From the IMG/VR virus record IMGVR_UViG_3300024521_000002, positions 1 through 33,193 of that record: 33,193 nt of DNA. One strand, given 5' to 3'. This stretch comes from a virus. The stretch's first letter is position 1. Each line of letters opens with the position of its first letter. Shown one piece after another: positions 6,117 through 29,883 of the stretch. Under the pieces are notes generated by a model. The model did no database searches and was not told the DNA's origin. It saw only the letters and a program-made list of their open reading frames with translations. Position numbers and translations under genes: made by a program.

Positions 6117-6451
6117 TGGCTGAACCTAGACGGATATCAACAAGGCGAGCGGTATTAAGTTACAGTCAGATAAAGGAAATGAATCCGCAATGGACTGATT
6201 TAATGGTAAAGGATTACCAAGGGATATTACAGGATTTTGCATTTACTGCTGATGAAGTGGATGGGTTAGAGGTTATTGTTTTTGAAAACAGCAATGATAT
6301 TGTTGAATTACAAGACTCTCATTACCCTAGTCTTTCAGCGCAAATGCAACAGATACAAAAACAATTAAAAGGCTTGGCAGAATTCACGATAGACACAAGC
6401 GGCTTTACAACTGATTTAAGCTTCATAACAACTGATAAGGTTATTGCCTAA
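6116..6451 (+). CDS. 111-aa tail-region protein, unknown family
   Basis: The ATG overlaps the gp10-like stop (TAATG). The protein starts MAEPRRISTRRAV, has a helical middle and a predicted coiled-coil around SLSAQMQQIQKQLKGLAEF, and ends in a Thr/Ile-rich stretch. It occupies the place of the P22 tail needle gp26, but is less than half its length. It could be a small tail accessory protein or half of a two-gene needle. I do not recognise a family. Confidence 0.65.
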   Translation: MAEPRRISTRRAVLSYSQIKEMNPQWTDLMVKDYQGILQDFAFTADEVDGLEVIVFENSNDIVELQDSHYPSLSAQMQQIQKQLKGLAEFTIDTSGFTTDLSFITTDKVIA

Positions 6452-14666: not shown

Positions 14667-15245
14667 TTATACCCCGTTATTTAGTTTAATTATTTTATCT
14701 TTAAAATACGCCTCAATATCTCGATAATCATCAGCGGTAAGTTTTATCTTATTGCTCCTGTTGTCATCGAGGTATTTAACTCTTTCAGCGCCTATTCGCT
14801 CAATTAAGTTTCTCCTGTAAAAGCCAGAGTCACCACCTTTAAACGTATTGCATGATTCTTTTTGCCCGTGAATATTATCCTCATTAAATCGTATAAATGA
14901 AAAGTTGCCTGACTCCCAAAAATGACCAGCATGGAACGAATCACCCAAAGGCTCCCCGCAACAAATACAGGGCTTACCTTTATCCCTAATGCGAATATAT
15001 AGGTGACAGACTTCTTTAGCCGCACGTTTGCGCGTTGGCAACTTATTGGCGTTGTACTCCTTCTTTTTAACTGCGAACTCTGCATCAATCCGCTTGACCG
15101 TCTTTTTCTTTAACTCGATAGGCTTCTTTGTTGCGTAATTATATCGACAATCATTATCACAAAAGAAACCTATTGGAGCGACAATGCCCTTGTCAGCTTC
15201 CTTGTATTTTTTGCATGACGTACAGCGCCTTTTTTTATTTGCCAT
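14667..15245 (-). CDS. ninG: NinG recombination protein (Rap family)
   Basis: This 192-residue basic protein carries the NinG layout. An N-terminal zinc-binding CTSCKKY and CDNDC (residues 9-35) precedes a Lys/Arg-rich helix. The conserved core follows: PCICCGEPLGDSFHAGH, then RFNEDNIHGQKESCN, with its Cys/His set. Lambda NinG (Rap) is a structure-specific DNA nuclease that aids phage recombination. It overlaps the acyl carrier protein gene by 11 bases and belongs to the leftward early operon, together with the ninB homologue at 16912-17355. Confidence 0.9.
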   Translation of the reverse strand: MANKKRRCTSCKKYKEADKGIVAPIGFFCDNDCRYNYATKKPIELKKKTVKRIDAEFAVKKKEYNANKLPTRKRAAKEVCHLYIRIRDKGKPCICCGEPLGDSFHAGHFWESGNFSFIRFNEDNIHGQKESCNTFKGGDSGFYRRNLIERIGAERVKYLDDNRSNKIKLTADDYRDIEAYFKDKIIKLNNGV

Positions 15246-15543
15246 TTAAACGATCGTCAACTATCAACACAATTTCAGCTAATGTAAACGCCTCGTAGTT
15301 ATCGCCTAAAAATAAATCATCTTCAATTTCAATTTTAAACTGTTCTTCAATACGCATCAGAATCTCAATGGTATCTATCGAGTCGCAACCTAAATCATTT
15401 ACGAACGCCTTATTTAACGTTACTTCCTTGCTTGATAAATCCATGTGATTCTTTACGGTGCTTATTACTCTTTTTTCTGTATCGGTTAATTTATTCACCT
15501 TTAACGCCTCCAGGTTAGTGATAATCGTTTTAAATTCAGGCAT
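15235..15543 (-). CDS. Acyl carrier protein
   Basis: The 102-residue acidic protein has the ACP core: helix I, then VNDLGCDSIDTIEILMRIEE, in which Ser55 of the DSI motif is the expected 4'-phosphopantetheine attachment site, then FKIEIEDD and a final helix (TLAEIVLIVDDRL). Bacterial ACPs are about 78 residues; this one has about 20 extra at the N-terminus. ACP carries acyl chains for fatty-acid and related synthesis. No acyltransferase or ketosynthase gene is nearby, so it would have to work with host enzymes or act as a partner or decoy. It is embedded between a 42-residue ORF and ninG with overlaps on both sides, so it belongs to the phage operon. Confidence 0.9.
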   Translation of the reverse strand: MPEFKTIITNLEALKVNKLTDTEKRVISTVKNHMDLSSKEVTLNKAFVNDLGCDSIDTIEILMRIEEQFKIEIEDDLFLGDNYEAFTLAEIVLIVDDRLNGK

Positions 15544-25404: not shown

Positions 25405-26063
25405 TGGGTATTCCAGTATTGATATTAGGTGAAAGCGGGTGTGGCAAGTCTACAAGTATGCGTAACCTTAACCCTGATGATTGCGTTGTGGTTCAGCCGA
25501 TAAGCAAGCGGTTACCGTTCAGGAATAAATTTAAAGCGATGACTAAGGGAGGGGGTCAGATAAAAGCTACTGATAACGCTGAAATGATAAACAAGTTAAT
25601 TACTGGAGCGGCTAAAGCTGGCAAGAAGGTGTTTATCATCGATGATTTTCAGTATGTAATGGCTAACGAATTCATGCGCAGAAGCAAGGAGAAGTCATTT
25701 GATAAGTTTAATGATATAGGGTTTAACGCTTGGTCTATTATCAATCATGCGCAATCTGTTGCCGGTGATATGCGTATTTATTTTATGTCTCATGTTGAAA
25801 GTGATATGTCAGGTAAAACGAAAATAAAAACAATCGGTAAGATGCTCGACGAAAAAATAACAATAGAGGGGATGTTTACAATAGTTTTGGGGGCGCAAGT
25901 TTCTGATAGCAAATATACTTTCTCTACACAGAATAACGGTAGCAATACAGTTAAAAGCCCGATGGGTATGTTTGAAGAAATGAATATAGATAATGACTTA
26001 AATATGATCGACAACACAATAATCGAATACTACAGCCTGGAGCAAACAAATGAACAAGTTTAA
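25404..26063 (+). CDS. Sak4-like RecA-fold ATPase
   Basis: The 219-residue protein has a Walker A motif at residues 9-16 (GESGCGKS) and a Walker B-type strand at about 76-81 (VFIIDD), followed by FQYVMANEFMRRSKEKSFDK and a strand ending YFMSHVE. This is the AAA_24 type that includes phage Sak4 proteins, which support annealing or strand exchange together with a phage SSB. An SSB-like gene follows with a 14-base overlap, the usual pairing. Confidence 0.85.
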   Translation: MGIPVLILGESGCGKSTSMRNLNPDDCVVVQPISKRLPFRNKFKAMTKGGGQIKATDNAEMINKLITGAAKAGKKVFIIDDFQYVMANEFMRRSKEKSFDKFNDIGFNAWSIINHAQSVAGDMRIYFMSHVESDMSGKTKIKTIGKMLDEKITIEGMFTIVLGAQVSDSKYTFSTQNNGSNTVKSPMGMFEEMNIDNDLNMIDNTIIEYYSLEQTNEQV

Positions 26064-26676
26064 CTACAACGAGCAATTAGCAACACAAATCGGTGCAGGT
26101 CAATATGTTACAAAGTCTGGCGGTTACGATCTTAAAATAGTTCGTGCTGAATTCACGAAAAGCCCAAACAATAGCGCTGAGTTTTTAGAGTTAGATTTTG
26201 AAACTCGCGAAGGTTTAAAGCTAAATTACGTGTCGATTAATTTTGTTGATGGTAAAGGTCAAGAAAACGCCTTTGGTATGAAGATGATTAACGCAATCAT
26301 GGGTTGTGCAGGCGTTCAAAATCTAACACAAGGCAATAATGGTAATTGCCCTGAATTATTCAACAAAGGTATTAAGGGGGTTGTTCAGCGAGTAGATTAC
26401 ACTAAACAGTCAGGCCCTAAAGCGGGCGAGGATGGGTATAAGTTTGAGTTTAAATTACCTGCAAATATTGGTACGGGGCGAACAGTAAAAGAAACCTCAA
26501 CACAATCAGAGGCAACAGCTTTTGCTCAATATGCTGGCTCAGTTGAAGATAAAGACACAAGAACATCGCCACAAGCCAGTCAGCAGGGTGGTGGTTTTAC
26601 TTCACAACTTAATCAACAGGGCGGTGCTGGCCAGCAAGAACCATCAGTTGACTTTGATGATGATATACCTTTCTAG
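26050..26676 (+). CDS. Single-stranded DNA-binding protein, DUF669-like
   Basis: The 208-residue protein has an OB-like N-terminal part (GGYDLKIVRAEFTKSPNNSA, LELDFETREGLKLNYVSIN), a Gln/Gly/Ser-rich linker (residues 170-198) and the acidic SSB tail DFDDDIPF at the C-terminus, which in SSBs recruits partner proteins. The DUF669-type body suits a phage SSB working with the Sak4-like ATPase. It is the last gene before the cassette-like array. Confidence 0.85.
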   Translation: MNKFNYNEQLATQIGAGQYVTKSGGYDLKIVRAEFTKSPNNSAEFLELDFETREGLKLNYVSINFVDGKGQENAFGMKMINAIMGCAGVQNLTQGNNGNCPELFNKGIKGVVQRVDYTKQSGPKAGEDGYKFEFKLPANIGTGRTVKETSTQSEATAFAQYAGSVEDKDTRTSPQASQQGGGFTSQLNQQGGAGQQEPSVDFDDDIPF

Positions 26677-26734
26677 ATCACGTTTAGGGGCGGTTAACCT
26701 TTTACAATGACAGGTTGCGTAGTAATTACAACGG

Positions 26735-26778
26735 TCTAGGGTATGTCGGCGACACTGATGACGGTGACATATCCTAGA
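26735..26778 (+). ncRNA. Strong hairpin, possibly structured RNA or recombination site
   Basis: TCTAGGGTATGTC (26735-26747) pairs with GACATATCCTAGA (26766-26778): 13 base pairs with one G-U, an 18-base loop and no T run after it. It is not a terminator. It may be a structured leader of the array or the remains of an attachment site. Confidence 0.4.
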
Positions 26779-26798
26779 GCTAAACGGGCGCTAACACC
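26773..26798 (+). repeat. Left flanking repeat of the cassette array
   Basis: This 26-base segment (beginning CCTAGAGCTAAACGGG) recurs at 29213-29238 with a single T/C difference. Both copies are followed shortly by TAATTGAA. The two copies bracket all the cassette genes. Confidence 0.75.
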
Positions 26799-26810
26799 GC
26801 CTTTAATTGA

Positions 26811-26853
26811 AACCAACGAGCTAGCAGCGCTCCTTTTGAGCGTATTGTTAGGT
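26811..26853 (+). repeat. attC-like site A (upstream edge of cassette 1)
   Basis: The R''-like box AACCAAC (26811-26817) and R'-like GTTAGGT (26847-26853, an exact GTTRRRY match) flank a short hairpin (GCGCTC and GAGCG around CTTTT). It is compact and lies just upstream of the first cassette gene. Confidence 0.5.
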
Positions 26854-26879
26854 TCGCACAAGCACAAAAGGTAGAAACA

Positions 26880-27110
26880 ATGAATGATTATTTATGGGAA
26901 ACTGAAGAAGAATTAGCAACAAATGAATTAACGATGCATGATTGGTTGGATTACCATATTGATGATACCTGGGATATTATTTTTCATGACGGCACTTATG
27001 CAGAAATAAAGACCGATGATGATTTAGTTTATGAAGTTCATGCAAGTGGTAACGGCGACTTTAGAAGTCACAAGGTTGAATTTAAGCTGATGCATGGCGA
27101 TGCAACCTAA
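26880..27110 (+). CDS. Cassette 1: 76-aa acidic hypothetical protein
   Basis: ATG 26880 follows AAAGGTAGAAACA. The product is highly acidic and aromatic (LWETEEELATNELTMHDWLD, DDTWDIIFHDGTYAEIK), strand-rich, and may be a small DNA-mimic-like protein, though nothing proves this. Its TAA lies inside the R''-like box of site B. Not recognised. Confidence 0.55.
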   Translation: MNDYLWETEEELATNELTMHDWLDYHIDDTWDIIFHDGTYAEIKTDDDLVYEVHASGNGDFRSHKVEFKLMHGDAT

Positions 27111-27222
27111 CCTTTGCATTAAAGGGTAAAAACGAAACACACACAAATATTAATTATTAACACAAATTTAACAACGACAGCAGACTGTTTTTATCCCGTT
27201 TGAATGCGTTGTCATGTTACCA
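27105..27222 (+). repeat. attC-like site B
   Basis: R''-like ACCTAAC (27105-27111, exact RYYYAAC) holds the stop of cassette 1. The left arm GCATTAAAGGGTAAAAACG (27116-27134) pairs with the right arm at 27187-27207 with unpaired bases on one side, and GTTACCA follows at 27216-27222. The loop is about 50 bases. The long imperfect stem with one-sided bulges is typical of attC folding. Confidence 0.65.
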
Positions 27223-27248
27223 CCACTGAAATTAATTAAGGATATAAA

Positions 27249-27398
27249 ATGGAACAATGTACATATGAGCACTGCTCAAACCCTGCGGAATTTATTGACG
27301 AAATGGACGACAAGGTTTGTCGTGAGTGCATGGAAAGAGAAATAAACGAGAGCGGTGCGTCACCTGAAGATTTCGAGCAGTTTTGCTTAGTAACATAA
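27249..27398 (+). CDS. Cassette 2: 49-aa zinc-finger-like protein
   Basis: ATG 27249 follows AAGGATATAAA. The first half has CTYEHC (Cys4, Cys9) and CREC (Cys24, Cys27), a plausible four-Cys zinc site, then an acidic tail. The TAA lies in the R''-like box of site C. Unknown function. Confidence 0.5.
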   Translation: MEQCTYEHCSNPAEFIDEMDDKVCRECMEREINESGASPEDFEQFCLVT

Positions 27399-27454
27399 CC
27401 TTTATTATTAACGAGCCGCAGCTTTTCGCGGTCACGTTGAATTAGTTGTTTAGG
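27393..27454 (+). repeat. attC-like site C
   Basis: ACATAAC (27393-27399) holds the stop codon. Stem parts AACG/CGTT and CCGC/GCGG (27410-27438) are offset by unpaired bases, and the right side reads GAATTAGTTGTTTAGG. The left side TAACCTTTATTATT is shared with site D. Confidence 0.6.
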
Positions 27455-27477
27455 CGGTAACTATTGGAGGATTACAA

Positions 27478-27696
27478 ATGTTTTTTAAATTACTAGTATG
27501 GTTAGGTAAGAAGTTTGAGATTGAAGGTGCGCCACTTTGTAGGGTATGGAATGATAAACACTCCGAACATTACACACTAAATAATGACGGCTGGATCATT
27601 ATTAGCGCACCAAGAAGTAAGTCGCATGACATGGTACATATTAGTTGCGCTAGTTCGACATTGCACAAAAAGTTTGAAGCGGCTTTAACCGCCTAA
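27478..27696 (+). CDS. Cassette 3: 72-aa hypothetical protein
   Basis: ATG 27478 follows TTGGAGGATTACAA. A short hydrophobic/basic N-terminus (MFFKLLVWLGKKF) precedes a strand-rich domain (HYTLNNDGWIIISAPRSKSH) and a C-terminal helix. The stop lies in GCCTAAC of site D. Unknown family. Confidence 0.55.
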   Translation: MFFKLLVWLGKKFEIEGAPLCRVWNDKHSEHYTLNNDGWIIISAPRSKSHDMVHISCASSTLHKKFEAALTA

Positions 27697-27757
27697 CCTT
27701 TATTATTCAGAGGAAAAGCGCGTACTTTGCTTTTTCCTTTGTAATTAGTTGTTATAT
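27691..27757 (+). repeat. attC-like site D
   Basis: GCCTAAC (27691-27697, exact RYYYAAC) contains the stop. AGGAAAAGC (27711-27719) pairs with GCTTTTTCCT (27729-27738) with one bulge, and TAATTAGTTGTTATAT ends the site. Arms are nearly the same as in site G. Confidence 0.7.
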
Positions 27758-27785
27758 TTTGCCGCAAACACAGGAGTAGAAACGA

Positions 27786-27938
27786 ATGAAGAACAAGAAA
27801 GCAAAACAAATGATTGAGAGTTTAACAGGGGCGAATTTCGGTAAAGTGCCTGTTGTTTCGTATTGGCATGGGTACAGACAGGCTAAATTAGTTTATTGCT
27901 TGGCAAAGAATAACAAGCCATATCCAAAGGCAATATAA
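27786..27938 (+). CDS. Cassette 4: 50-aa basic hypothetical protein
   Basis: ATG 27786 lies behind AGGAGTAGAAACGA. The product is basic (MKNKKAKQMIESLTGANFGK) with Trp/Tyr in the centre (SYWHGYRQAKLVYCLAK). Its TAA lies in ATATAAC of site E. Unknown function. Confidence 0.5.
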   Translation: MKNKKAKQMIESLTGANFGKVPVVSYWHGYRQAKLVYCLAKNNKPYPKAI

Positions 27939-28030
27939 CGCCTCATTAAGAGGCAAAAATACGTTTGCTAAAATGGTTGAGGGACGAAAACAGCAAACGT
28001 ATTTTTGTCCTTTTGAATGACTTGTTATAC
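27933..28030 (+). repeat. attC-like site E with 15-bp perfect stem
   Basis: ATATAAC (27933-27939) holds the stop, and GTTATAC ends it (28024-28030). Between them AAAAATACGTTTGCT (27955-27969) pairs perfectly with AGCAAACGTATTTTT (27992-28006), and outer arms CATTAAGAGG / CCTTTTGAATG pair with bulges. This is the clearest attC-like structure in the array. Confidence 0.75.
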
Positions 28031-28034
28031 GTAT

Positions 28035-28367
28035 TTACCAGTGACTTTTAAAAGAAGGAATTACAAAATCATGTTTGTCATCAACTTTTGCGTTAAGCAC
28101 TTCAATTTGGGTGTTAAGTTTACCAACAACATCTTCGTGTTCTTTTTGGATGCTAGAGACGGATTTATTGGTATTATCTTGGATAGCTTTAAGTTCAGAC
28201 TTGATGCTATTAAGGTTTTCGTCTATGTCCTTAATCGTTCTGGATCTAGACTCGGCTTCGAGGTGAGACTTGAACCAACCCCTTGCAAGAAACCAATTAA
28301 CACTAAAGGAAGCGCCTATAATCCAGTGGTAAGGGTTGCCGATAAAGTCGAAAATTGCTTTCTCCAT
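28035..28367 (-). CDS. Cassette 5: 110-aa membrane-anchored coiled-coil protein (reverse orientation)
   Basis: The minus-strand frame starts at ATG 28367 (MEKAIFDFIGN); ATG 28385 is a possible longer start. Residues 8-28 form a hydrophobic, Trp-rich segment, probably a membrane anchor. The rest is a long charged coiled-coil (SRTIKDIDENLNSIKSELKA). It is the only array gene on the minus strand. A plus-strand frame over the same bases looks less protein-like. It has no RBS of its own at the usual distance. Holin- or spanin-like topology is conceivable; no function can be assigned. Confidence 0.6.
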   Translation of the reverse strand: MEKAIFDFIGNPYHWIIGASFSVNWFLARGWFKSHLEAESRSRTIKDIDENLNSIKSELKAIQDNTNKSVSSIQKEHEDVVGKLNTQIEVLNAKVDDKHDFVIPSFKSHW

Positions 28368-28394
28368 GATGATTACACACTCCATTGATTATAC

Positions 28395-28451
28395 GTATAA
28401 CCTTTTATATTAGCCGGCAGTTTACTGTCCGTGCTGAATTTGTTGTTATGT
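28395..28451 (+). repeat. attC-like site F
   Basis: GTATAAC (28395-28401) and GTTATGT (28445-28451) enclose TTAGC/CGG/CAGT pairing with ACTG/CCG/GCTGAA, interrupted by single unpaired bases. It has the same TAACCTTT start and GAATTTGTTGTTA end as the others. Confidence 0.65.
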
Positions 28452-28471
28452 TACGCCTTGGAGGAGTGATT

Positions 28472-28642
28472 ATGAAAAGAAGAAAGCTAGATTACAGGGC
28501 AAGCGCCTATAGCGACGCGGCAGATATGTTGTATTCGATGGCGGCAGATTGCGGAGTAGAAGAAAAAATGAAAGAGTATGAGTTTATAGCTAAAAAATTA
28601 GATGGTGAAGCTAACAAGCTATATAAAACGAAAGCAACATAA
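28472..28642 (+). CDS. Cassette 6: 56-aa helical hypothetical protein
   Basis: ATG 28472 follows GGAGGAGTGATT; the frame upstream belongs to site F. The product is a helical, mixed-charge protein (YRASAYSDAADMLYSMAADC, then EEKMKEYEFIAKKLDGEANK). The stop lies in ACATAAC of site G. Unknown function. Confidence 0.5.
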   Translation: MKRRKLDYRASAYSDAADMLYSMAADCGVEEKMKEYEFIAKKLDGEANKLYKTKAT

Positions 28643-28698
28643 CCGATATTATTCAGAGGAAACGGCTTCATGTTTTCCTTTGGAATTGGTTGTTAGCA
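28637..28698 (+). repeat. attC-like site G
   Basis: ACATAAC (28637-28643) holds the stop. CAGAGGAAAC (28654-28663) pairs with GTTTTCCTTTG (28672-28682), and GAATTGGTTGTTAGCA ends the site. Arms match site D closely. Confidence 0.7.
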
Positions 28699-28734
28699 GT
28701 TGAATTGCTAGCGACACACTAACGGAGATAAATA

Positions 28735-28935
28735 ATGCACATTGAATTGAATGACGATGAATTAAACAGGTTAGCTAGAAAGTTTGAAGGGAGCGCGTAT
28801 CATCAAGGTTATGCGCTGCATAGAAATAACAATAGAGAGAAACGTTTTGATTCAGAGTTAACCCAAGCAGCGTTCACTGGATATATATTAGCTACGAAGG
28901 GTAGGAGCTTTATATATGCAAACGGTGGGGAATAA
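28735..28935 (+). CDS. Cassette 7: 66-aa hypothetical protein
   Basis: ATG 28735 follows ACGGAGATAAATA. The product begins with an acidic amphipathic helix (IELNDDELNRLARKFEGSAY) and continues basic and aromatic (YALHRNNNREKRFDSELTQA). Its stop lies five bases before the R''-like box of site H. Unknown function. Confidence 0.5.
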   Translation: MHIELNDDELNRLARKFEGSAYHQGYALHRNNNREKRFDSELTQAAFTGYILATKGRSFIYANGGE

Positions 28936-28939
28936 TTCC

Positions 28940-28959
28940 TGCTAACCTTTGCGTTAAGC
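28940..28959 (+). repeat. Collapsed attC-like site H
   Basis: TGCTAAC (28940-28946) and GTTAAGC (28953-28959, exact GTTRRRY) stand only six bases apart. Their complementarity (GCTAAC/GTTAAGC) remains but the central stem is missing. It may be a deletion product of a full attC. Confidence 0.45.
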
Positions 28960-28984
28960 GGCTACGATATTAAAGGAGAAAACC

Positions 28985-29212
28985 ATGAGTACAGATTACA
29001 AAGCAATGCTAGAGAGTACGAGTAACCACCAGCCAACTGTTAGTAGTCCGACTTGCACGGCGTTGTTATGTTGCCCCTTCTGCGGGGGAGCTCCACACAA
29101 AAGGGTTATACACGATGTTGTTTACGCAAAATGTATTAATACTGACTGTCATCTTGGTAGAGTAAGAGGGTATTTATTCACTAAAACAAAATGGAATACT
29201 AGGGCATCATAA
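28985..29212 (+). CDS. Cassette 8: Lar-like restriction-alleviation type zinc protein
   Basis: The 75-residue protein has CCPFCGGAPH (residues 29-38) and CINTDCHLG (50-58), the two Cys pairs of a Lar-family zinc ribbon, and the C-terminal WNTRAS typical of that group. Lar of Rac prophage alleviates type I restriction. A long Ser/Thr N-terminus precedes the ribbon. ATG 28985 follows AAAGGAGAAAACC. Stop in TCATAAC of site I. The family fit is good; the activity is not proven. Confidence 0.7.
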   Translation: MSTDYKAMLESTSNHQPTVSSPTCTALLCCPFCGGAPHKRVIHDVVYAKCINTDCHLGRVRGYLFTKTKWNTRAS

Positions 29213-29250
29213 CCTAGAGCTAAACGGGCGCCAACACCAAGCGCTAATTG
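29207..29250 (+). repeat. Degenerate right-end site I with flanking repeat
   Basis: TCATAAC (29207-29213) contains the stop of cassette 8 and runs into the 26-bp repeat at 29213-29238. A short GCGC/GCGC pairing and TAATTGAA follow, but no GTTRRRY box. It looks like half an attC or a boundary scar. Confidence 0.45.
29213..29238 (+). repeat. Right flanking repeat of the cassette array
   Basis: 26 bases matching 26773-26798 with one difference. Between the copies lie all eight cassette genes; recombination between them would delete the whole array. Confidence 0.75.
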
Positions 29251-29271
29251 AAGCATGCAGAGGTAATAATT

Positions 29272-29883
29272 ATGTTTATAGAAAAACCGTCATGTAAAAA
29301 CTCGCTATCTTCTAGGAAGTTAGTTTTTGGGGTTGGTGTTAATGACTCTTGGTATACGACAAAGTATAAGGATGATGGTGCGTGGGTTAGGTGTCCGTTT
29401 TACAAGGTATGGTACCATATGCTACAGAGGTGCTATGACGAAAAGTTTCATGAAAAAAACCCTACTTACGCCACCTGCTCTGTTGATGTTGAATGGCATT
29501 TGTTTTCAGAGTTTAGGTCTTGGATGGTTGAGCAGAACTGGCAAGGTAATCAGCTGGATAAGGATTTGCTTGTGCAGGGAAATAAAGTGTACTCAAAGGT
29601 TAGCTGTGTATTTATTAGTCGTGAACTTAATGGCGGATTGATAACTTCATCATCCAGAGGGGGTAGGCTTAAGTTAGGTGTAAAAGCGGTAAAAGGGAGC
29701 AGTAAATACGAGGCCGCGTGCTGTACCGGTGGAAAGCAAGTGCATATTGGCACGTACAGCACAGAGGGTGGTGCACATGAAGCATATAAGAAATTTAAGA
29801 TGTCTGTGCTTATTGGGTATGCAAAAGGGATGAGTCAAAAGATAAGAGAGGCGGTGCTTAGGATTGAGATACCAGAATACTAA
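29272..29883 (+). CDS. Putative DNA-binding protein, HNH/AP2-type homing endonuclease relative
   Basis: ATG 29272 follows AGAGGTAATAATT; the frame back to TTG 29248 lies in the boundary repeat. The 203-residue protein has WVRCPFYKVWYHMLQRCYDE, WHLFSEFRSWM, NQLDKDLLVQGNKVYS and, near the end, a basic AP2-like unit (GVKAVKGSSKYEA, then IGTYSTEGGAHEAYKKFK). This layout is seen in phage HNH/AP2 homing-endonuclease relatives, many of which have lost nuclease residues. No intact HNH triad is obvious, so it may be a DNA-binding protein only. It directly follows the cassette array. Confidence 0.65.
   Translation: MFIEKPSCKNSLSSRKLVFGVGVNDSWYTTKYKDDGAWVRCPFYKVWYHMLQRCYDEKFHEKNPTYATCSVDVEWHLFSEFRSWMVEQNWQGNQLDKDLLVQGNKVYSKVSCVFISRELNGGLITSSSRGGRLKLGVKAVKGSSKYEAACCTGGKQVHIGTYSTEGGAHEAYKKFKMSVLIGYAKGMSQKIREAVLRIEIPEY

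Follow-up and report, generated by a model that had tools for sequence, protein, structure and literature searches.

The 33,193 bp of the IMG/VR virus record IMGVR_UViG_3300024521_000002 that we analysed (hereafter, the window), an incomplete genome, carry an array of eight tandem units (26773–29212), each of 242–462 bp and holding one small open reading frame (ORF). The array sits between an ssb gene, for a single-stranded DNA-binding protein (SSB), and the late region, and an AAA ATPase gene also adjoins it. By its gene content, the window is most of the genome of a P22-like marine phage: it encodes a P22-type head-binding (Head_binding) tail protein, NinG, and a head protein, and the major head protein is 65% identical to that of Vibrio phage 234P9 and around 40% identical to those of APSE phages. 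A match search among phage records gave none close to the array or to the genome. A preliminary description, made from the letters of the sequence, had counted here eight single-ORF units of about 230–420 bases; the units are indeed present, with the sizes given above, and the fifth ORF is most likely carried by the minus strand. It had also placed six of the eight stop codons (27108, 27396, 27694, 27936, 28640, and 29210) in RYYYAAC-like boxes, and all six are found there, as a TAA inside a RYYTAAC box. The imperfect inverted repeats with common arms (TAACCTTTATTATT / AATTAGTTGTTA) that it reported are present as well, and go beyond chance by the permutation tests and by the two covariance models presented below. 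From these sequence features, we identify the array as a phage-borne cluster of attC sites lacking an integrase (CALIN), i.e., a series of cassettes bounded by integron attC recombination sites.

In an integron cassette, the first bases and the end box derive from one circular molecule and are, hence, complementary. This signature is found throughout the array: the bases following GTT match the reverse complement of the bases preceding the unit's own AAC in 8/8 units (seven directly, and one if an inserted T is allowed), as in the pair GTTAGCAG/CTGCTAAC. Beyond GTT, 39 of the 48 bases match, a level equalled or exceeded in only 3 of 40,320 permutations of the starts and ends. When the 34 cassettes of seven contigs are pooled, i.e., with those of the related phages described below, 156 of 170 positions match, whereas the permutations average 87 and never exceed 120 (0 of 100,000 as good). 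A plain count of closures of at least 7 bases is near chance alone, and was superseded by this permutation test on the tiled array. The sites were also recognised by covariance models. The 14 attC sites used to build model R2 came from related phages and not from the window; R2 detects each of the seven phage-type sites here, with E between 1e-9 and 3.5e-3, and gives one other match in the window at position 6423 (E 0.03). Model R1, built from the integron of the Shewanella prophage vB_SspM_M16-3, detects the eighth site, at 27933–28030 (E 2.7e-5), as well as sites of Pseudoalteromonas, Aliivibrio, and the Tetrasphaera phage TJE1. Between the two models, the covariance check that the preliminary description had called for gives attC matches at all eight sites; a CALIN being defined by at least two clustered attC sites, there are here eight model-supported ones in 2.3 kb.

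The sites align as attC arms, the best of them with extrahelical bases in the textbook 5-1-3-1-3-1 order. R''/R' boxes near RYYYAAC/GTTRRRY close cassette by cassette, the RRRY part being often off consensus (GTTATAT), and the L''/L' stems carry extrahelical bases on one arm only, which is, in ORF direction, the arm opposite to the canonical one. One attC type is labelled by its sequence, AAAGGTTA. The pair count on the trimmed attC alignment is modest, probably because the attC subtypes differ in spacer length by one base. A generic scanner for hairpins and boxes was dropped, as it matched shuffled sequence as often as the window; a scanner requiring TAACAA, near background outside arrays, served only to place sites in the phages PH101, TJE1, and P12002L, and gave no clear site in P12002L. 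No match to the integron integrase family TIGR02249 is present in the window, and no PF00589 tyrosine recombinase in 11 phage records (the window, the essentially complete relative G001, and nine others). As regards a complete integron, no intI was found, and no attI was seen by eye, no attI model having been applied. The proposal of an attC cluster without integrase carried by a phage has therefore held up, as the attC models match, relatives vary their units, and no integrase was found.

The orientation of these sites is the second main result. In a canonical cassette, it is the 5' arm of the coding strand that bears the extrahelical bases, and AA comes after TAAC. The Shewanella prophage, used as a control, presents 10 bulges on the 5' arm vs 2 on the other, and AA after the R'' box in 12 of 13 sites. 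On the contrary, when the 34 phage sites are read along the ORFs, 22 single-base bulges are located on the 3' arm vs 2 on the 5' arm (sign test, 4e-5), and AA is found at the end opposite to the canonical one in 34/34. The 5-1-3-1-3-1 pattern appears in the reverse complement of the phage ORF strand, and the R1 and R2 matches are all on the minus strand of the window array; in Aliivibrio, Pseudoalteromonas, and TJE1, the models match on the strand carrying most or all of the genes. All attC sites of the window have one polarity, opposite to that of the phage genes.

The extrahelical bases determine which strand is recombined, the crossover taking place in R' (Bouvier et al. 2009, PMC2727003). 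Together with the inverted polarity, this rule leads one to expect the seam at RYYYAA^C of the ORF strand, right after the stop codon; the TAA of the predicted seam is the stop codon in 24 of the 34 ORFs. The preliminary description had each attC end the cassette of the preceding ORF, and this part has to be reversed: each attC most likely goes with the ORF that follows it, the seam being TAA^C and not G^TT. A phage-type cassette therefore reads C-attC-5'leader-ORF-TAA^, and its seam is expected exactly after the stop codon or a few bases beyond it. The canonical layout, in which the ORF precedes its own attC and both share a strand, is absent from phage-type cassettes and found only in the unit 27939–28400. 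The assignment of each attC to the following ORF accounts for two attC subtypes in which the ORF has its start within the hairpin and reads through. Such starts, in frame past R', are present in five cassettes of four phages, and encode either the leader MSTDYKAMLESTSNHQ... (in the window, at 28985, and in G001) or a lipoprotein signal peptide, MKNNKLLIVLLSVLLVS (in G001, G002, and L002). Compared with one G001 copy, the window leader shows 4 synonymous codon differences and 1 non-synonymous one (shifted frames, 1 and 4), which are small numbers. The idea that attC leaders fuse to the genes of the next cassette was dropped, the polarity placing leader and gene in the same cassette. As a separate observation, the attC 3' arm encodes a lipoprotein signal peptide in L064 (6900), L065 (4868), and L002 (4237), where this module sits inside the recombination site and is followed by two different mature lipoprotein families.

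The fifth unit (27939–28400) seems to be a captured bacterial cassette, which would have entered on exact seams and in the orientation dictated by its polarity, i.e., against phage transcription. Replicons of Pseudoalteromonas, Aliivibrio, Vibrio, and Catenovulum carry attC sites to which its own site, c4, is 74–83% identical over around 95 nt. A c4-like attC ends a gene of the opposite strand in P. xiamenensis and Pseudoalteromonas sp. CuT4-3 (the layout of L078 and L080), and in P. xiamenensis an integron integrase fragment (TIGR02249, E 3.9e-29) is close to it. Deleting 27939–28400 in silico joins GGCAATATAA to CCTTTTATATTAGCCGGCAGT, and the resulting junction resembles a natural one of G004 (94% over 54 nt, with one extra A in G004); as GGCAATATAAC|CTTTTATATTAGC, it is also the junction of G003, with a different inner stem. 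A plus-strand ORF of 123 aa in this unit was rejected on the basis of the attC polarity and of the Pseudoalteromonas cassette layout; its match to a pore-forming toxin subunit (18.6 bits vs a cut-off of 360) is most likely coiled-coil noise.

Table 1. Cassettes, attC sites, and adjoining genes of the array (positions in the window).
Feature	Positions	Strand	Description
SSB gene	26050–26676	+	Directly upstream of the array; phrog_743, E 3.5e-24
Left unit, degenerate, without ORF	26677–26772	.	RYYYAAC-like box at 26692; closure GTATGTC/GACATAT; by reading the sequence, no model score
attC B	26767–26853	-	Lipoprotein-type derivative, R'' mutated (CATATC); R2 24.4 bits, E 2.8e-3
Cassette 1	26773–27110	+	attC B and 76-aa ORF 26880–27110; TAA at junction; closure GTTAGGTT/AACCTAAC
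attC c1 (113 nt)	27105–27217	-	R2 48.3 bits, E 1e-9; extrahelical bases 5-1-3-1-3-1
Cassette 2	27111–27398	+	attC c1 and 49-aa ORF 27249–27398
attC c2	27393–27454	-	R2 24 bits, E 3.5e-3
Cassette 3	27399–27696	+	attC c2 and 72-aa ORF 27478–27696; closure needs one inserted T
attC c3	27691–27757	-	R2 36.3 bits, E 1.7e-6
Cassette 4	27697–27938	+	attC c3 and 50-aa ORF 27786–27938
attC c4, bacterial-type	27933–28030	-	R1 34.8 bits, E 2.7e-5
Cassette 5, bacterial-type	27939–28400	-	116-aa ORF, most likely 28385–28035, with attC c4 at its 3' end
attC c5	28395–28451	-	R2 36.4 bits, E 1.5e-6
Cassette 6	28401–28642	+	attC c5 and ORF of 56 or 64 aa, from 28472 or 28448 to 28642
attC c6	28637–28698	-	R2 31.2 bits, E 4e-5
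Cassette 7	28643–28945	+	attC c6 and 66-aa ORF 28735–28935; stop 10 nt before junction
attC c7, long type	28940–29071	-	Ribosome-binding site, ATG, and leader MSTDYKAMLESTSNHQ inside hairpin; R2 28.3 bits, E 2.5e-4
Cassette 8	28946–29212	+	75-aa ORF 28985–29212, start inside own attC, then Lar-like CPFCGG zinc-ribbon domain
Right-hand half attC	29206–29245	-	CATAACCTAGAGCTAAACGGGCGCC...; 31-nt repeat of 26768–26798 (94%); 3' arm missing
HNH endonuclease ORF	29248–29883	+	Next after the half attC; phrog_953, E 6e-70

Six IMG/VR relatives, all of them metagenome contigs, share this attC family, which makes seven arrays in all: G001 (3300027856_000076, 40.5 kb), G002 (3300024518_001002), G003 (3300038533_000058), G004 (3300030385_001022), L075 (or G016, 3300010430_002842), and L002 (or G017, 3300024518_003978). 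G001 is essentially a whole genome, since its ends overlap by 133 nt at 95% identity, and its head protein is 97–98% identical to that of the window over the two available parts. Pattern scans for further relatives returned only L075, G001, G002, and G003. An ssb-like gene immediately precedes the array in the window, G001, G002, G004, L002, and probably L075, and the G003 contig starts within the array. What the arrays have in common is the attC module, whose left edge is mostly located 2–4 bases before the C of TAA^C and whose right edge lies 3–7 bases beyond the G of R', sometimes extending into the 5' leader. The subtype of attC c1 is also present in G002, G003, and L075, that of c3 in G001 (twice) and G002, and that of c7 in G001 (twice, plus one shortened copy). 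The ORFs, for their part, are nearly all unrelated between arrays, the only links being the lipoproteins of G002 and L002 (44% identity) and the attC leader peptides. The preliminary description had asked for related phages to be compared unit by unit, and they do carry different units between the same attC sites.

Two further observations concern the frame in which these ORFs are held. The 5' leader classes GTTATATTTGCCG..., GTTAGGCGGTAACTATTGGAG..., and GTTAGCAGTGAATTGC... recur with unrelated ORFs and different attC sites (window, L064, L065, L066, L068, and L075), and look as if ORFs had been swapped within a fixed frame of leader and closing box. Moreover, the arrays of the relatives end in a common TAACACT... 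(L065 6490, L002 4455, L064 7449, L068 9271, L066rc 1970, and L075rc 4382), a sequence that is not a full attC and may be a terminal site with a fixed place in the locus. Used as an exact pattern, the commonest attC subtype matched three viral contigs and none of 84,980 bacterial and archaeal species genomes; this one strict pattern weakly suggests that the attC family is phage-restricted. An alignment search with the SSB in bacterial genomes returned nothing.

As regards the cargo, the cassette 2992–3697 of L075 (reverse complement coordinates) encodes a Mom-like DNA modification protein of 204 aa (PF25680, E 3e-25), likely an anti-restriction gene. One DUF7448 and one DUF3850 protein are also found, in relatives, among the 34 cassettes. 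As for the Lar-like product announced for cassette 8, matches exist (PF14354, E 0.012; phrog_599, E 1e-3; TIGR03655, E 2.1e-3), all below the curated cut-offs where these exist (18.3 vs 39.6 bits for TIGR03655 and 16.3 vs 28.6 bits for PF14354), so that a Lar identity is only weakly indicated. At the right end of the array, the HNH endonuclease gene begins at the place taken, in relatives, by the ATG of the leader that attC carries (window 29206–29272); a homing-type HNH endonuclease may have replaced or invaded a cassette there. Elsewhere in the window, an acyl carrier protein-like gene (15235–15543, minus strand; PF00550, E 1.3e-8) adjoins ninG. A weak match of 42 nt (27773–27814, 86%) to the Vibrio phages helene 12B3 and eugene 12A10 is probably due to chance.

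Taken as a whole, the locus is very probably an inverted cassette array without integrase on which a host integrase would act in trans. Since no tyrosine recombinase is present in the window, in G001, or in the nine other phage records, we infer that the enzyme would be supplied by the host: the integron integrase of a marine Vibrionales or Alteromonadales bacterium, e.g., Pseudoalteromonas, would recombine the folded attC strand, and would in this way both insert and remove cassettes. Each attC would serve as the 5' untranslated region of its own gene and, in two subtypes, as the start of the protein. The array would be transcribed as an operon from the phage early promoter; this is likely, since every gene but the one in the captured cassette runs in the direction of the SSB gene. 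The cargo would consist of small accessory genes, some of them probably directed against host defences, as the Mom-like gene of a relative and the Lar-like gene of the window suggest.

Several points weigh against this account. The phage-type sites are barely scored by the Shewanella model R1, and therefore form a divergent attC family. A homologue of the 116-aa ORF of the fifth unit was not found in plasmids, and only one bacterial-type cassette directly supports the seam. Finally, attC modules swap both flanks among phages, and some 5' leaders adjoin different attC sites; an integrase acting alone at one seam does not explain these two patterns, and homologous recombination between attC repeats may also act, a process that probably contributes to the exchange. 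If this process were the only one today, the sites would be genuine attC sites, now dead, and cassettes would be exchanged by homologous recombination within the attC repeats and conserved 5' leaders of co-infecting phages. We consider this unlikely. The modules do share up to around 140 nt at around 90% identity between phages while both flanking ORFs differ, 5' leaders do recur with varying attC neighbours, there is one site whose R'' box is broken and one half site, and the array adjoins ssb and the AAA ATPase gene; on the other hand, stem pairing, extrahelical bases, and the end complementarity of each cassette are all maintained, and the bacterial-type cassette, with a different attC, is nevertheless located on exact seams.

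A canonical polarity, in which each attC would end the cassette of the preceding ORF with a crossover at G^TT, has very little probability left, and can be regarded as largely refuted already. The ORFs end at the RYYYAAC box as in many ordinary cassettes, and the end complementarity is compatible with either seam. However, the extrahelical bases, the TAACAA motif, and both models are on the minus strand, this polarity would cut in two the ORFs that have their start in attC, TAA^C is the seam that agrees with the empty site of the bacterial-type cassette, and the c4-like attC of bacteria sits 3' of a minus-strand ORF. Even more improbable, and already refuted by the specificity of the matches, is a reading of the repeats as terminators of transcription or as sites of RNA processing, with the units as ordinary mosaic phage genes; the preliminary description had listed such repeats among its grounds for refutation. 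Hairpins are common between small co-directional phage genes, but here the repeats have no Rfam match, the boxes begin within stop codons, and the ends of a unit match their own partner better than the ends of other units; integron attC models match, and one site is homologous to a bacterial integron attC.

Phage CALINs have been published before, in TJE1, PH101, P12002L, and others (Qi et al. 2023, PMC9892861); five of the six phage attC sites tested there were recombined by IntI1 in trans, with junctions at the R' box, and methyltransferases were noted among the cargo (PMC9892861). The present array is like these by its attC sites, small ORFs, and missing integrase inside a phage genome (PMC9892861), and differs from them in that one attC family is shared across related phages. 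The passages of that paper covered here do not discuss polarity relative to the ORFs (PMC9892861), and none of the open-licence papers searched describes, in its main text, an array that is inverted throughout. TJE1 has the canonical polarity, attC sites and ORFs being both on the plus strand, while in PH101 ORFs are found on both strands around the sites; here, all phage-type ORFs oppose their attC, in seven contigs. In the same region of PH101 (Pseudoalteromonas phage H101; L007 25900–28000), we also observed, around the attC sites, genes on both strands and repeated leaders in both directions.

The sedentary chromosomal integrons of Vibrionales and Alteromonadales (P. xiamenensis, Aliivibrio salmonicida, L078–L080) resemble the array in the c4 site and its cassette layout, the R boxes, and the extrahelical bases; their ORFs end at their own attC, whereas the phage array is reversed except for one cassette, and no intI was found in it. 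The Shewanella prophage vB_SspM_M16-3 (MZ568829) likewise carries attC cassettes inside a phage genome, but with intI, attI, and the canonical polarity. Recombination sites bearing a start codon are also known from short translated ORFs of attI1 and attC, where such coupling of the ORF-11 type aids translation of the next gene (PMC8876359). The phage sites share with them the start codon carried by a recombination site (PMC8876359); unlike them, two phage attC subtypes give the actual N-terminus of the protein, i.e., a lipoprotein signal peptide or MSTDYKAMLES.... The kind of element, the phage CALIN, has been known since 2023, and what is new is the inverted cassettes, the attC-borne start codons, and the apparent captured bacterial cassette.

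Integrons are known as systems by which bacteria capture genes, and phage attC clusters were previously isolated cases; here, several related phages carry one attC family at a shared place in the genome, with cassette genes that are almost entirely different. Because a bacterial cassette appears to have entered on exact seams, it can be tested directly whether bacterial integrons and phages exchange cassettes. As for the inverted polarity, it suggests that phages have a distinct, adapted kind of cassette whose recombination site also provides the translation start; it is, moreover, a simple signature by which further cases can be sought in sequences. Tentatively, a marine phage lineage without a recombinase might keep a private pool of reversed cassettes with attC as 5' leader and sometimes as the N-terminus of the gene product, and might use host integrases to trade anti-defence genes among its members and to sample host cassettes, inserts being translated at once from the phage operon. 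In this way, the array indicates one source of small phage genes that change rapidly, and some of these genes are likely directed against host defences.

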